In this document: positions 6,640-17,262 of the stretch, piece by piece | How the letters are laid out: every line of letters starts with the position of its first letter | Position numbering within the stretch: the first letter of the stretch is position 1 | From: Ignavibacteriota bacterium | Lineage (GTDB): Bacteria; Bacteroidota; Ignavibacteria; UBA10030 | Direction of reading: 5' to 3' | Length of the DNA stretch: 32,935 nucleotides | NCBI GenBank assembly: GCA_022616555.1 | Contig: JAKEEG010000023.1 | Location: 1-32,935 of the forward strand | Notes under the pieces: generated by a model | Seen by the model: only the letters and a program-made list of their open reading frames with translations | What the model was told of the DNA's origin: nothing | Database searches by the model: none | Made by a program: the position numbers and the translations under genes

Positions 6640-6936
6640 TCAAGGTTGCAAATCTTCTGACAAATCTCGCCACTCTGGGTTCATCGCACTAATGAGATCC
6701 AACTTTTTCTGACGCGAACCGGCTTTTAGTTGTTTTTCGCGTGCTATTGCGGCCTGAACATCTTCATGGACTTCGTACCAAACGAGCTTTGTCAAATTGT
6801 AACGACTTGTAAATCCTTTGATAAGTTTATGTTTGTGTTGATAGACTCTCTTTGGAAGATCGCTCGTAAAGCCCGTATAAAGCACTTCGTTTGTCTTATT
6901 GGTCATTATATAATCGTAGTAGAACTTCTTCTTCAT
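6640..6936 (-). CDS. GIY-YIG domain nuclease, single-domain
   Basis: 98 residues, the length of stand-alone GIY-YIG proteins (UPF0213/YhbQ type). The two family motifs are present in modified form: Y-D-Y-I-M at residues 7-11 for GIY and L-Y-T-G-F-T at 19-24 for YIG, then the conserved Arg30 in L-P-K-R-V-Y-Q-H-K, and Glu67 in A-R-E-K-Q-L-K, where the metal-binding glutamate is expected. These enzymes nick or cut DNA. The gene has no operon partner and lies between inverted copies of repeat family A (6580-6613 and 6949-7032), which suggests repeat spread or self-movement. The start at 6936 has no clear ribosome binding site. Confidence 0.85.
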   Translation of the reverse strand: MKKKFYYDYIMTNKTNEVLYTGFTSDLPKRVYQHKHKLIKGFTSRYNLTKLVWYEVHEDVQAAIAREKQLKAGSRQKKLDLISAMNPEWRDLSEDLQP

Positions 6937-12692: not shown

Positions 12693-12717
12693 GGGGTGTT
12701 GAAATATTGGTTTTTTG

Positions 12718-12768
12718 GGTAGGACAGACATTCTTGTCTGTCACAGGCAGATATTCCTGCCTGTCCTA
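12718..12768. repeat. palindromic repeat family B (GGACAGACA), left of RAYT
   Basis: GACAGACA (12723-12730) and TGTCTGTC (12735-12742) pair around TTCT; ACAGGCAG (12743-12750) and CTGCCTGT (12757-12764) pair around ATATTC. The outer TAGGACAG and CTGTCCTA also pair, so the whole is a cruciform. The stop codon of the transposase gene (12766-12768) is the last three bases. Confidence 0.85.
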
Positions 12769-13233
12769 TTCAAAAATTTCGCGATTGAAATACCAGCCCT
12801 GATAAGTCCAAGGGTCTAAAGTTAACTCCTTCTTTACTGGATTATTCAACATATAGTTAAACTTTTCGTCAAATTCTTTCTGGTTTCTGATAATTCGATC
12901 AAAAGACTCATTGAGCCAAATACTGCCCTTTGTTTTTCTCATTCTGTTTATTTTGTTTGCTGAGACACCTTTGATGCCTTTCATGATTCGGCTCAAATCG
13001 TAGTTGCTTTTTTGTCGGAGGAGAATGTGTACATGGTCAGGCATGACAACAGCTGCAAGGAGTGAATAATATTTATCTTGTCCTTCTTTGATGTGTTTTA
13101 AGACTGCAACTTGTTCTTTTTCTGAGAGTACAGTTGATTTTGTCCGGAAGGTAACGAAATATACCGCGTCGTGAATGGTCCAATGGGGGAGATGTCTGCG
13201 CGTAATTTGAAGTTGTGGATTAGACGTGTCCAT
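12766..13233 (-). CDS. REP-associated tyrosine transposase (RAYT, Y1_Tnp/IS200-like)
   Basis: 155 residues. A Y1-type single-strand DNA transposase: the HUH motif is His67-Val-His69 in V-V-M-P-D-H-V-H-I-L, and the catalytic tyrosine is expected at Tyr127 in N-Y-M-L-N-N-P. W-L-N-E-S-F-D-R-I-I-R near 106-116 is typical of RAYTs. Such proteins bind and cut REP palindromes. Both flanks here carry family B palindromes (12718-12768 and 13247-13383), and the gene's own stop lies inside one. No classical IS left/right ends or TnpB partner are seen, so it is a domesticated-type stand-alone gene. No clear ribosome binding site precedes the ATG. Confidence 0.92.
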   Translation of the reverse strand: MDTSNPQLQITRRHLPHWTIHDAVYFVTFRTKSTVLSEKEQVAVLKHIKEGQDKYYSLLAAVVMPDHVHILLRQKSNYDLSRIMKGIKGVSANKINRMRKTKGSIWLNESFDRIIRNQKEFDEKFNYMLNNPVKKELTLDPWTYQGWYFNREIFE

Positions 13234-13246
13234 TTCTAAAAATATT

Positions 13247-13383
13247 GAGTAGGACAGACATTTGCCGAAGGCATCCCTTTGGGACTTGTCTGTCTATATC
13301 AGACATTCTTGTCTGTCCTCGACTTGTTCAAGTAAATGACAGGCAAACATATTTTTGTCAGACAGGAATGTCTGACCTACCCC
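13247..13383. repeat. palindromic repeat family B cluster, right of RAYT
   Basis: Several units: GTAGGACAGACATT with an inserted GCCGAAGGC stretch and CTTGTCTGTC; then CAGACATT with TTGTCTGTCC; then GACAGGC with TCAGACAGGAATGTCTGA near 13358-13375. The middle and outer arms pair with each other and with the left-hand copy at 12718-12768. This is a mosaic (BIME-like) array. Confidence 0.8.
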
Positions 13384-13420
13384 AAAGCAATGGCTAATAT
13401 AACAATCTCCCCGCTCTTTT

Positions 13421-14917
13421 TCACTCCCGGAATTTCTTTTTCCTTCGCTTCTTTGACGTAAATTTTTCAGCCATTTCGCCGATGAGTTTCCGCCAATCGC
13501 TTTTTTTGTCCGGGTGCGAATGGGTATGTTTGCCTTCTGCCTGTTGGCGAAGCTCCTGGGAGGACGCATTTGCTTCGAGCCTCTTGCTTTCAGAATGCCC
13601 GCGGAACCTGCGCTTTTGTTGTGGTCGCCCGTGGTGGCCCTCTCCGCTCTTTTTTTGGTGTTGTTGCCGTGGATGGTGTTGTCTATGCTGGGAATGAGTT
13701 TTTGGATGACGCGTTTGCCCGGTGGACGTCTCTGCCATTAGTGCATTTGCTGATGCAGCCCCAGGCGCGACCGCAGGTCCAGCCGGCTTGGTGTAATCAA
13801 AACCCGGATAGTGTTGAAGCGGGAAATGTTTGGACGTGAACCGCTCGAGTCTTCTGAGCGAATCAACGTCCTCCCGCGCAACGAAGGTAATCGCATCGCC
13901 CGTCGCGCTTGCGCGCCCCGTGCGCCCGATTCGATGGATGTAGTCTTCCGGGAATCCGGGAATATCATAGTTCACCACGTGTGAGATACCCTCCACGTCG
14001 ATGCCGCGCGCAGCAACGTCCGTTGCAACGAGCACGCGGAACTCTCCGTTCCTGAATCCTCCCAGCGCGCGCATGCGCTGTGCTTGCGTCCGGTTAGAAT
14101 GGATGGCGGTTGACCTGACGCCGTTTTTTTCTAAACGCTTCGAAATCTTATCCGCACCGTGTTTCGTGCGGGAGAACACCAGCACGCTATCAAGCTCCTT
14201 CTGCTTCAGCATAAAGAGCAGCAGCTCCATTTTTCTGTCCGGCGAGATGGAATAAAACGACTGCCGCACGGAATCCACCGGAGCACGGCGCTCACCGATT
14301 TCTATCAGCACCGGATGCTTTTGCAATGCCGACATCAGGTCGCGCACCTCTTTGGACATCGTGGCGGAAAACATCAGCGTCTGCCGCTCGGCGGGCACGT
14401 GGGACACAATTTTCTTCACATCTTTAATAAAGCCCATGTCAAACATCCTGTCCGCTTCGTCGATCACCAGGATTTGCACGTGCCGCAAGTCCACGCTGCG
14501 GCGCTCGAGATGGTCCAAGAGTCTGCCCGGAGTTGCGATCACGATATCCACGCCGCGCTGCAATCGTTTCAGCTGATTCTGCATGTTCGTGCCGCCATAG
14601 ATGGCAAGTGTGCGTGTGTGCAAGAACCGTCCGTAGGTACTGATGGCGTCTTCGATTTGCTGGGCAAGTTCCCGCGTCGGAGTTAAAATTAACGCTCGGC
14701 AGTGATGCGTCTTGGTATGGTGTTTTGCGAGATGCTGGAGGATAGGGAGGACGAACGCCGCTGTTTTCCCGGTTCCCGTTTGAGCCGAGCCGATAATGTC
14801 CTTGCCCGAAAGCGCCGCCGGTATCGCGCGCGATTGGATTTCCGTCGGTGCGACAAATCCGGTGGCTAAAATCCCCTGCACGAGTTCATCGGACAGGCCT
14901 AACGTTTTGAATGGCAT
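13421..14917 (-). CDS. rhlE: DEAD-box RNA helicase, RhlE type
   Basis: A 498-residue ATP-dependent RNA helicase of the cytoplasm, involved in RNA unwinding for ribosome assembly or decay. The Q motif region is at 1-28, motif I A-Q-T-G-T-G-K-T at 45-52, P-T-R-E-L-A near 80-85, motif II D-E-A-D at 153-156, motif III S-A-T at 184-186, A-R-G-I-D near 303-307, and motif VI H-R-I-G-R-T-G-R at 328-335. The tail from about 385 is polar and basic, with many His, Gln and Lys, and ends in a lysine/arginine run, typical of RhlE tails that bind RNA. It has its own transcript, with repeats on both sides. The start ATG is at 14915-14917. Confidence 0.92.
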   Translation of the reverse strand: MPFKTLGLSDELVQGILATGFVAPTEIQSRAIPAALSGKDIIGSAQTGTGKTAAFVLPILQHLAKHHTKTHHCRALILTPTRELAQQIEDAISTYGRFLHTRTLAIYGGTNMQNQLKRLQRGVDIVIATPGRLLDHLERRSVDLRHVQILVIDEADRMFDMGFIKDVKKIVSHVPAERQTLMFSATMSKEVRDLMSALQKHPVLIEIGERRAPVDSVRQSFYSISPDRKMELLLFMLKQKELDSVLVFSRTKHGADKISKRLEKNGVRSTAIHSNRTQAQRMRALGGFRNGEFRVLVATDVAARGIDVEGISHVVNYDIPGFPEDYIHRIGRTGRASATGDAITFVAREDVDSLRRLERFTSKHFPLQHYPGFDYTKPAGPAVAPGAASANALMAETSTGQTRHPKTHSQHRQHHPRQQHQKKSGEGHHGRPQQKRRFRGHSESKRLEANASSQELRQQAEGKHTHSHPDKKSDWRKLIGEMAEKFTSKKRRKKKFRE

Positions 14918-14929
14918 ATGTTTTTTTTT

Positions 14930-14960
14930 CAGTTTAAAGTTTCAGGTTTAAAGTCTAAAG
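14930..14960. repeat. AGTTTAAAGT-type low-complexity repeat
   Basis: AGTTTAAAGTTTCAGG followed by TTTAAAGTCTAAAG, just upstream of the helicase. The same words occur in reverse at 19514-19554 in the 3' end of a crotonase gene; related AACTGGAAACT words occur at 157-198. Confidence 0.6.
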
Positions 14961-14969
14961 TCCATTTTT

Positions 14970-15000
14970 GTCATTGCGAGCGTTTTGTGCGAAGCAATCC
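14970..15000. repeat. palindromic repeat family A, copy 3
   Basis: GTCATTGCGAGCGTTTTG followed by TGCGAAGCAATCC, a near-match of the units at 6580-6613 and 23865-23898 (same order and orientation, differing in the loop and the final bases). It is the first of several repeats in the 1-kb gene-free stretch 14918-15942. Confidence 0.8.
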
Positions 15001-15064
15001 CACCAACGAATAAATCGAGACTGCTTCTCTGAAAAACCCTCGCTGTGCTGCCAGCTTTTCTTTC

Positions 15065-15096
15065 TGGGAGGGAGTTCCCACTCCCGACCCTCCCTC
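15065..15096. repeat. GGGAGGGAGT hairpin repeat
   Basis: GGGAGGG (15066-15072) pairs with CCCTCCC (15088-15094), and GGAGT with ACTCC inside it around TCCC. A TCTTTATT tail follows on the + strand, so it could also weakly terminate a + transcript, but no + gene lies upstream. Confidence 0.55.
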
Positions 15097-15108
15097 TTTA
15101 TTCCCTGC

Positions 15109-15250
15109 TCTAACCATTAGGGAAGGGGTTAGGGGATGGGTTCGTTATAAATAGCTATAATGTTTTGTCCCTTCCCCTCTAGGGGAAGGACAGGATGGGG
15201 TCATCACTCAAAAATGACCTCACCCTAACCCTCTCCTAAAGGAGAGGGAA
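15109..15250. repeat. palindromic repeat family C, tandem copies
   Basis: Three parts: TTAGGGAAGGGG with GTTAGGGGATGGGTT (about 15117-15142, as at 10106-10130); CCTTCCCCT/AGGGGAAGG, a perfect 9-bp stem (15170-15189); and CCCTCTCC/GGAGAGGG, an 8-bp stem around a TAAA loop (15229-15248). All share the CCTAACCC/GGGGATGGG wording. Confidence 0.75.
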
Positions 15251-15324
15251 CGAATTCATTATTTTTCTCAATAAAAACGCTAAATTGTAATCTTTACAAA
15301 ATGTAATTTACCTTCATTTTGTAC

Positions 15325-15353
15325 TTGACAATGAAGAATCGATTCATTACATT
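15325..15353 (+). promoter_or_regulatory. candidate sigma-70-like promoter
   Basis: TTGACA at 15325-15330, a 17-base spacer, and TACATT at 15348-15353, in an AT-rich stretch. It points rightwards into the GC-rich structured element at 15438-15624. No protein gene follows, so if real it would drive a non-coding transcript. The spacing is ideal, but such AT-rich matches arise by chance. Confidence 0.35.
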
Positions 15354-15437
15354 ATTATTGCTTTAATGAAGTACGATAATTAACGCTGATGCACGCGGGA
15401 GGGCCCAAACCTGCTTACATCGGTATTGCTTATTTTA

Positions 15438-15624
15438 TCCTAACCCCAAATAGGGGCTGTCCCAACCGGGGTTCGCAGTAGGAGCCACACGACGCGAGTC
15501 TGCACCAATCGGATTCGGGCTTCTGAACCCCATGAGCCTGTCTCGCAAGCTGCACGGCGAGAAGGGCCGAGCGGACAAGTCAGCTCTTTTAACATCCTCG
15601 GTGTGACGCCCCTTTCGGTTAGGA
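15438..15624 (-). ncRNA. candidate structured RNA, possibly HEARO/omega-RNA-like, orphan
   Basis: A GC-rich block in AT-rich surroundings with nested long-range pairing. TCCTAACC (15438-15445) pairs with GGTTAGGA (15617-15624), AGGGGC (15452-15457) with GCCCCT (15608-15613), and the next GTC (15459-15461) with GAC (15605-15607), giving a 17-bp closing helix with small internal loops. Inside, GGGGTTC (15468-15474) pairs with GAACCCC (15525-15531), and short hairpins form at 15495-15517 and CTCGC/GCGAG (15542-15561). Read on the minus strand, the wording recalls to me HNH-associated RNAs (HEARO, the guide RNAs of IscB transposons), but this is memory, not a search. No IscB, IsrB or TnpB gene is in the window. 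The + strand cannot be excluded, and a promoter candidate points that way. Confidence 0.4.
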
Positions 15625-15689
15625 CTTAAAACCAAGAAGGTAGATACAATGTAACCAGAAATCAGTTAAGAACATATTGAATTCAACAG

Positions 15690-15800
15690 GGTAGGACAGA
15701 CATTCTTGTCTGTCCAAGACTAGCTCTATTGGGTAGGACAGACCTGCCTGCGGCAGGCAGGCATTTGCCGAGGACATCCCCTTGGGACCTGTCTGTCAAA
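15690..15800. repeat. palindromic repeat family B, distal copies
   Basis: Two units: GTAGGACAGACATTC with TTGTCTGTCC (15691-15715), and GTAGGACAGACCTGCCTGC with GGCAGGCAGG, ATTTGCCGAGGACATCCC and GGGACCTGTCTGTC (15732-15798). The second has the same inserted TTTGCCGA-GGCATCC segment as the copy at 13260, so they are one subfamily. About 2.5 kb from the RAYT gene. Confidence 0.8.
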
Positions 15801-15903
15801 ACCTATCGCTACGTAGAAAACCCTCCACCCCGCAACGCTACTTCTCAAGAAGGAACAGGTGGGGTGCGGAGGAAAGCAAGATTTATGATTTAGCCTTTGT
15901 TTT

Positions 15904-15930
15904 ATTGATTCAGTGAATCAATCGTCAATC
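15904..15930. repeat. palindromic repeat family D, copy 1
   Basis: ATTGATTCA (15904-15912) and TGAATCAAT (15914-15922), then CGTCAAT. Related copies are at 19452-19486 and 30411-30467. It lies 13 bases past the stop of the T9SS cargo gene. Confidence 0.7.
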
Positions 15931-15942
15931 AGAAAATACTAT

Positions 15943-17262
15943 TCATTTCACCAAAACCATCTTCCTCGTCTCAGTATATTGCGGCGTCACCAAACGATAA
16001 AAATATGTCCCGCTCGGAAATCCTGTCGCATCCCAATACTTGTGGTAAATCCCTTGGTCGAGCTCCTCGTTAATCAGCGTTGCGACCTCTCTGCCGAGCG
16101 CATCGACAATCGTGAGTTTTACATGCATCATTTCGTTCAGCTTAAATTTGATAGTGGTGTTGGGGTTAAACGGGTTGGGGTAGTTCTGGTCGAGACTAAT
16201 GAACGCGGGAACATCCGGCCGCGTCTCAACGGTAGTAACCGGGTCGGTCGTGAATTTGTAAATCGTTCTTCCGCTGGCGTAACCGAGCGTATCGCCGAAC
16301 ATGCGGAAGCGGTTCAGGTTCGCGCCGAACGAAGGCGTCCACGTTGCGCCGCCATCGGTTGTTTCGTACGCGAGGCTGTTGAAGCCTCCCGCCCAGCCGC
16401 GCTGCCCGTCCGCGAGAAATTGAATCCCCTGCATCTCCATGGAGTACGTGCCGGCGGGAAACGATTTCGTCTCCCACGTCAGTCCGCCGTCTGTGGTTTT
16501 GAGATAGCTTGGAACCGCATTTGCGGAACCGAACGGGAACGGCTCTATCGAAACATATCCTGTTGCGGCTGTCGGGAAGGTAATCTTCCAGCAAAGCTGT
16601 CCGGCTTGCGTTCCTTGATAAACGGTATTCCACGAATCGCCGCCGTCGGTGGTACGCAAGACGAGCGCTTTTTTAGAGTTGAGATCCGCGCCTTCGATGG
16701 ATGACCCGACGACATATCCGGTATCGAGCGAGAAAAAATAAATATCGACGAGCGACCCGGCATAGACATTCATATTTTTGACTGTCCAGTTCGCGCCGCC
16801 GTCCGTTGTTTTAATGAAATAGGGAGTCGCCTCCGGATTGTATCGCCCCACGGCGAACACGTACGAAGTATCGATAGAAAACAAGCCGCAAACCGCGGCC
16901 GGTCCGGAGGGAAGATCAAGTACCGGCGACCACGTTGCGCCACCGTCGGTTGTGCGCCACAACGGCGCGCCGGAAAGCGAGCCGAGCCATCCATTGTTTG
17001 CGTCTGTAAACCGGATGCTGCGGCCTGCGGCAGCAATGTTTGTAAACGACCAGCTCGTGCCGCCGTCGGTAGTTTTATATACGTTCGTACCGGCAACGCG
17101 CACGGCAGCCCAGCCCGTATACGGGTTGATGAAATACAAATCGTCGATTTTGCCGGTGATAACCGGAGCGTTGGGCAGGGCTTTCCATTCAGGCTGGTCT
17201 TGAGCATGGAGGATGAAGTAAGCAGGCGAGACAAAAAGCAGTACAACAAAAAGTTTTCTCAT
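15943..17262 (-). CDS. T9SS-sorted beta-propeller (YCF48/BNR-like) protein
   Basis: 439 residues. A signal peptide (1-20, FVVLLFVSPAYFILHAQ) is followed by a propeller with six copies of a T-T-D-G-G-x-[ST]-W motif spaced 45-60 residues apart, as in photosystem II assembly factor-like and sialidase-type propellers. Residues from about 347 form a type A sorting domain of the type IX secretion system: Q-N-Y-P-N-P-F-N-P, then I-K-F-x-L, D-A-L-G-R-E-V-A-T-L, G-x-Y, Y-W-D-A-T-G-F-P-S-G-T-Y-F-Y-R-L, and a final K-M-V-L-V-K. It should be secreted across the outer membrane and fixed to the surface. Starts 12 bases after a PorV-like gene. The binding target is not shown. Confidence 0.92.
   Translation of the reverse strand: MRKLFVVLLFVSPAYFILHAQDQPEWKALPNAPVITGKIDDLYFINPYTGWAAVRVAGTNVYKTTDGGTSWSFTNIAAAGRSIRFTDANNGWLGSLSGAPLWRTTDGGATWSPVLDLPSGPAAVCGLFSIDTSYVFAVGRYNPEATPYFIKTTDGGANWTVKNMNVYAGSLVDIYFFSLDTGYVVGSSIEGADLNSKKALVLRTTDGGDSWNTVYQGTQAGQLCWKITFPTAATGYVSIEPFPFGSANAVPSYLKTTDGGLTWETKSFPAGTYSMEMQGIQFLADGQRGWAGGFNSLAYETTDGGATWTPSFGANLNRFRMFGDTLGYASGRTIYKFTTDPVTTVETRPDVPAFISLDQNYPNPFNPNTTIKFKLNEMMHVKLTIVDALGREVATLINEELDQGIYHKYWDATGFPSGTYFYRLVTPQYTETRKMVLVK

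Follow-up and report, generated by a model that had tools for sequence, protein, structure and literature searches.

A dispersed family of candidate structured RNAs with four core types in an Ignavibacteriota genome

Introduction

OLE, ROOL and GOLLD RNAs are intergenic, strongly structured and without protein, features that they share with the family described here. For OLE, an excerpt of PMC12286853 describes a dimer loop that changes from one palindrome to another (GGCC, GAUC and AGCU). HEARO RNAs (RF02033), the guides of IscB transposons, also resemble the family, in their length of approximately 200 nt, their several hairpins and their closing pairs. Stand-alone omega-RNAs have reportedly been seen in Ktedonobacter. 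Rfam model RF02033 matches 65% of HEARO nuclease 5' UTRs, according to an excerpt of PMC9755519. ERIC, MITE and REP sequences are a further comparison, since they too are dispersed intergenic copies with complementary ends.

The locus studied here lies in a window of 32,935 nucleotides, the whole stretch of DNA that was analysed, which is contig C69 of an Ignavibacteriota assembly (2,989,061 bases, 99 contigs, 97.97% complete). In contrast to OLE, ROOL and GOLLD, the family has no Rfam match and comprises, within one genome, numerous copies of several core types; no member was found in the relatives searched. It differs from HEARO in that there is no model match, no IscB domain was found and the promoter-like sequence is on the other strand. 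The differences from ERIC, MITE and REP sequences are promoter-like sequence of its own, four core types and elaborate predicted folds. The titles and opening parts of abstracts covered by a literature search contained no description of this RNA family.

Results

The 187-nt block at 15438–15624 had a GC content of 0.594, compared with 0.315 in the upstream flank (15260–15437) and 0.318 in the downstream flank (15625–15690). It had been described from its sequence as a GC-rich orphan structured RNA candidate in AT-rich surroundings with nested complementary arms, all of which were found at the positions given for them (Table 1). The proposed 17-bp closing helix consists of 8, 6 and 3 pairs with an internal loop and a bulge between them. 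As predicted, no protein gene lay over the block (no ORF of at least 80 aa covering it). No tRNA or tmRNA was found in the window and no terminator in a scan of 14920–15945. Searches with Rfam gave no match in the whole window at the gathering threshold and, at E ≤ 10 within 14900–15960, nothing that overlapped the block.

The predicted fold of the block had an energy of −79 kcal/mol on the plus strand (z −3.60; 1 of 200 shuffles equally good) and −78 kcal/mol on the minus strand (z −1.98; 6 of 200). By itself, this calculated energy was a modest departure from chance. The block goes beyond chance because the cores described below, eight of type A and 11 of type B, retain a fold with compensatory changes. 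The original prediction of an orphan structured RNA candidate was right.

Table 1. Coordinates of the putative RNA unit and of the nearby transposase gene in the window
Feature	Position	Strand	Basis or remark
Promoter region	15285–15353	+	AT-rich upstream part; −35 TTGACA 15325–15330; spacer 17; −10 TACATT 15348–15353
Leader	15360–15437	+	Predicted fold; RNA start placed from the −10 box
Leader hairpin	15395–15414	+	Loop AGGGCCCAAA 15400–15409, contains palindrome GGGCCC
Structured core, type A	15438–15624	+	Eight BLAST copies; R1 219.2 bits; covariation
Closing helix P1, 5' arm TCCTAACC	15438–15445	+	Position check
Closing helix P1, 3' arm GGTTAGGA	15617–15624	+	Position check
Helix P2, 5' arm AGGGGC-(T)-GTC	15452–15461	+	Covariation, position check
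Helix P2, 3' arm GAC-GCCCCT (GCCCCT from 15608)	15605–15613	+	Covariation, position check
Long arm GGGGTTC ... GAACCCC (GAACCCC from 15525), variable hairpin inside	15468–15531	+	Two-sided changes in helices
Tail, purine-rich in most copies	15625–15680	+	Copy alignments
RAYT-like IS200-type transposase gene	12766–13233	−	PF01797, E 5e-12

Further copies were present in the same genome, dispersed over its contigs, by whose names the units are referred to here. BLAST with the block gave nine places, namely eight type A copies, including that of the window, and a fragment at the start of contig C30. The seven other type A copies were 76–93% identical to the window copy. The fragment was left out of the counts; its 98–101 nt also form the end of C87, and C20 shares 88 of them. 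A covariance model built from the eight type A copies only (R1) matched 20 places, of which 11 were new and full-length (24–49.5 bits; E 2.3e-12 to 2.1e-4, the E-values being rough). Two of the R1 places were on contig C31 and were counted once, because the surrounding 3192 bases are identical and their coordinates mirrored. These features, which concern the 3192 bases and not the whole contig, suggest that C31 is an inverted duplicate from assembly. BLAST and R1 together thus gave 18 distinct cores, eight of type A and ten of type B.

A third core type, type C, was found at C30:38720 (unit C30x). Its core of approximately 100 nt has TTCCTGA/TCAGGAA ends, and the unit runs in the order TTGACAATGTAATTT, leader hairpin, type C core and a tail that is purine-rich at its start. 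A sequence-only promoter model (R2), built from 19 units including the window copy, gave 42 places in the genome at E ≤ 1, 20 of them being the 19 building units (C31 twice). The ten best new places were read; eight were RNA units and two (C90, C12) preceded protein genes. The eight were C42 (type C), C71 (the eleventh type B unit) and C18, C78, C1, C35, C83 and C11, which constitute type D (cores of 278–380 nt, n = 6). The resulting family of 27 units (8 A, 11 B, 2 C and 6 D) rests, as far as R2 is concerned, on these ten best new places; twelve weaker places, two wrong-strand matches and alignment A5 were left out. The genome thus holds at least 27 related putative RNA genes of four core types.

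The usual unit consisted of a TTGACa-N16/17-TATATT promoter, a hairpin leader, a core closed by TCCTAAC/GTTAGGA and a purine-rich tail. The core ends varied: apart from those of C30x, they were diverged in C18 and C83 and shifted in C84, and C10 had an insert beside the 5' arm. This anatomy takes in neither the motif GGTGTGTAC nor a shared, CCGAAATCGAGGCGGTGTGCGC-like downstream repeat, which was observed at approximately +310 to +500 in units C26, C84, C42, C71, C30x, C6, C35 and C1.

Compensatory changes among homologues were present in the type A and type B cores at levels above shuffles. In the eight type A cores, 98.7% of 399 cells were paired and 14 of 50 pairs showed two-sided changes; none of 500 shuffles reached these cores on four measures and one of 500 did so on a fifth. 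The 11 type B cores had 95.8% of 498 cells paired and two-sided changes in 13 of 46 pairs, and none of 500 shuffles reached any of the five measures. Related sequences can, however, exceed shuffles. When the partner was moved by one column in type B, pairing was 44–48%, a control that leans towards the predicted structures because these were derived from the same sequences. The type B fold comprised P1 (TCCTA/TAGGA), P2 (GGCGTC/GACGCC), a long arm with a terminal variable hairpin, and a further hairpin, GTGCCGAG/CTCGGTGC, whose loop is conserved. The type B loop TGAATCTATTTGTCGTCAACT (e.g. L028, C49) was nearly invariant in the 11 cores and was followed by a pyrimidine tract; a pseudoknot between this loop and tract and the purine-rich tail is possible. 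In type D, two-sided changes were found in 14 of 77 predicted pairs (six cores) with a covariation term of −0.01, and this fold is no more than suggestive, as the term is near zero. An alignment of all 18 cores (A7) was poor between types and was left out of the counts; in alignment A10, C82 was one column off.

The block had originally been read on the minus strand, which is probably wrong in view of a shared promoter-like sequence on the plus side and the folding of type B. Alignment folds on the plus and minus strands were −54.5 and −36.3 for type B, −67.2 and −65.7 for type A, and −72.0 and −69.8 for type D. Single cores folded better on the plus strand in 10 of 11 cases for type B, three of six for type D and three of eight for type A. 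Folding therefore gave a clear strand for type B alone (plus) and was undecisive for types A and D. An excess of GU over AC in the plus-strand structures is biased because the structures were taken from the plus reading, and the minus reading of type A had it likewise (GU 29, AC 9).

The firmer pointer to the strand was the shared sequence upstream on the plus side, where homology between copies extends past the core. Boxes resembling TTGACa-N16/17-TATATT were placed before 18 of 18 type A and B cores (−35 box to core 93–260 nt) with a permissive pattern over 420 nt and without a shuffled control. A genome search for TTGACAATGTAATTT, chosen independently of position, gave eight exact occurrences and nine with at most one mismatch, and the reversed control gave none. 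Seven of the eight exact occurrences preceded known cores and the eighth preceded the new type C core. At C64:6542–6585 the promoter contains an inverted repeat, with TTGACAATGTAATTT on the plus and TTGATAATGTAATTT on the minus strand, possibly an operator. The window promoter was matched by R2 at 15285–15370 (E 6.6e-9), its copy having been among the 19 in the model; taken alone, it was at chance level (one site, 1.6 expected in shuffles). Elsewhere in the family, R2 matched eight places in seven of 31 genomes at E ≤ 0.001. The seven of these that were read (all but L102) all seemed by eye to precede protein-coding sequence, and the promoter thus looks like an ordinary promoter of the clade. 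The stretch at 15625–15645, which the minus-strand reading had made a guide, differs between copies and is mostly purine-rich on the plus strand in all alignments. As the plus strand is probable, this stretch becomes the start of the downstream tail.

This orientation also bears on the proposed kinship with HEARO, which was not supported. Neither the region 14900–15960 nor the whole genome matched RF02033 at E ≤ 10, and the RRXRR domain of IscB (PF14239) had no match at E ≤ 1 in the genome, 97.97% complete; no control genome exceeded the cut-off in either search. Stand-alone HEARO or omega-RNAs on the minus strand, acting as trans guides of an IscB-like nuclease, would fit a structured RNA that has several copies and a length of about 200 nt. 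These negative searches, with no positive control over the cut-off, and the promoter-like sequence on the opposite side make this reading very unlikely. A very divergent relative is conceivable, as no control exceeded the cut-off and RF02033 covers only part of the HEARO nucleases. Other known families were equally absent: the Rfam families of OLE, ROOL and GOLLD had no match over the core in the window, in 14900–15960 or at nine further loci, and at the latter Rfam gave two sub-gathering matches at E ≤ 0.5, neither over a core.

In its closing helix around a multi-hairpin RNA, the unit is reminiscent of retron-type RNAs with their a1/a2 helix. The genome contained no match to the reverse transcriptase domain RVT_1 (PF00078) at E ≤ 1, although three of 14 control genomes were over the cut-off, and we give this explanation hardly any credence. 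Integron attC sites have the consensus boxes RYYYAAC/GTTRRRY. If TCCTAAC and GTTAGGA were such end boxes around a variable middle, they would fit at six of seven positions, and the middle does vary in length. The outermost base is, however, wrong on both sides, the copies are single and dispersed instead of in arrays, and each type has a strongly conserved middle, so that attC-like sites are highly improbable.

Promoter groups in alignment A8, judged by eye and without a tree, were independent of core type. C84 (type A) grouped with C64 and C10 (type B), and C87, C26 and C74 (type A) grouped with C9 (type B) and C30x (type C). Part of the leader of the window copy (type A) was common to C40 (type B). 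By BLAST, an upstream segment in 23 of the 27 units matched two or more of the others; the remaining four (C20, C43, C70 and the copy in the window) were similar to other units in the core region only. Since the promoter groups cut across core types, modules appear to recombine, a pattern that would fit core exchange and ordinary recombination between copies alike.

Such exchange would also fit non-autonomous mobile DNA of the MITE or ERIC kind, with TCCTAAC/GTTAGGA as inverted repeats, a core that acts as DNA and a promoter as cargo. The copies, dispersed and intergenic, do not all have equally many relatives and were not found in the other genera searched; a gene for a RAYT-type transposase is 2.2 kb distant (Table 1). 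Against this stand four core types of different sequence behind the same promoter and leader, and multi-branch folds retained by compensatory change. In addition, the palindromes at the RAYT gene of the window have a different sequence, and the genome has five Y1_Tnp places, of which only two share a contig with a unit. We regard the mobile element as a serious contender that is nonetheless rather unlikely, and the same holds for its part that copying is done by a protein made elsewhere.

Palindromes resembling GGACAGACATTCTTGTCTGTCC surround the RAYT gene (12717–12767, 13227–13319, 13354–13386), and copies of the RAYT-type palindrome lie just 3' of the RNA core (15689–15717, 15758–15797). Membership of the core in a REP/REPIN family was rejected, as the RAYT palindromes (12717–13386) are unlike the core and represent a separate family. 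The window also encodes a small stand-alone GIY-YIG protein (6640–6936, minus strand; PF01541, E 3.5e-16), and a neighbouring protein has a Por_Secre_tail domain, which points to a probably Bacteroidota-like lineage.

In the predicted leader folds, hairpin loops were rich in palindromes. Palindromes of 4 nt were present in 20 of 27 units, compared with an average of 10.6 and at most 16 in 100 runs of shuffling, and those of 6 nt in six of 27, compared with an average of 1.8 and at most 5. As the units are related, these counts are not independent. Of the six longer palindromes, two were AT-only, and several loops were the centres of perfect inverted repeats. The palindromic leader loops resemble OLE, whose dimer-contact loop has a palindrome that changes between homologues, according to the excerpt (PMC12286853). 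By analogy, they are a hint, as a lead and not as proof, that the RNAs might form dimers by self-pairing.

Outside the genome, BLAST with the block gave no match in 99 relatives. R1 was likewise without a match in the rest of the family (31 genomes, E ≤ 0.1) and, with stricter filters that lose weak matches, in 390 other class genomes. Type D cores, searched by BLAST in 391 class genomes at similarly strict settings that lose weak matches, matched their own genome and one 45-nt stretch (E 1.5e-4) that is apparently coding. One type B pattern was used to scan a species collection; it gave 17 places, and R1 matched none of the 17 loci. The public collections may lack records of the genome studied here. 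In viral contigs, a type A pattern gave one place (27 nt core-like, with an ORF running through), a second type A pattern and a type B pattern none, and a type D pattern three places (22–29 nt core-like). Plasmids gave four short matches for type A (E 2–7) and none for types B and D, and phages, searched with the type A query only, seven short matches (E 7). These candidates were rejected. The family thus appears confined to one lineage among the genomes searched; this lineage may mean one genus, because the relatives compared include no genome of the same genus.

Discussion

On balance, we consider it probable that the block is a gene for a structured RNA, one of many related copies. These genes would have their own promoters, and their RNAs would probably act in free form and possibly dimerize via the leader loop. 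Transcription of each unit would start from its own promoter and, on the plus strand, yield an RNA that is a few hundred nt long. This RNA would begin with a hairpin domain at its 5' end, continue with a core between the arms of a TCCTAAC/GTTAGGA-like helix and finish with a tail that is mostly rich in purines. With less certainty, it may work free-standing, either in trans or as a scaffold, and two copies of it may pair with each other via the palindrome in the leader hairpin loop.

Judged from sequence, the units are most likely free-standing transcribed RNAs. Counting against an RNA are the strand, on which types A and D do not decide, and the possibility of a mobile, promoter-carrying DNA element. 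We hypothesize further, as a bolder and on the whole unlikely proposal, that the at least 27 genes are modular, with cores swapped among shared promoters, leaders and tails, and that their RNAs form self-sorting homodimers via the palindromes, a kind of RNA not previously described.

With at least 27 units, strong covariation in two core types and no match of the core model in 31 relatives, this genome alone provides an alignment of the grade needed for fold prediction. The putative RNA genes would represent a natural experiment in RNA module exchange. If the loop palindromes drive self-pairing, the family would be a further case, beside OLE, of an RNA homodimer that can be read from sequence.
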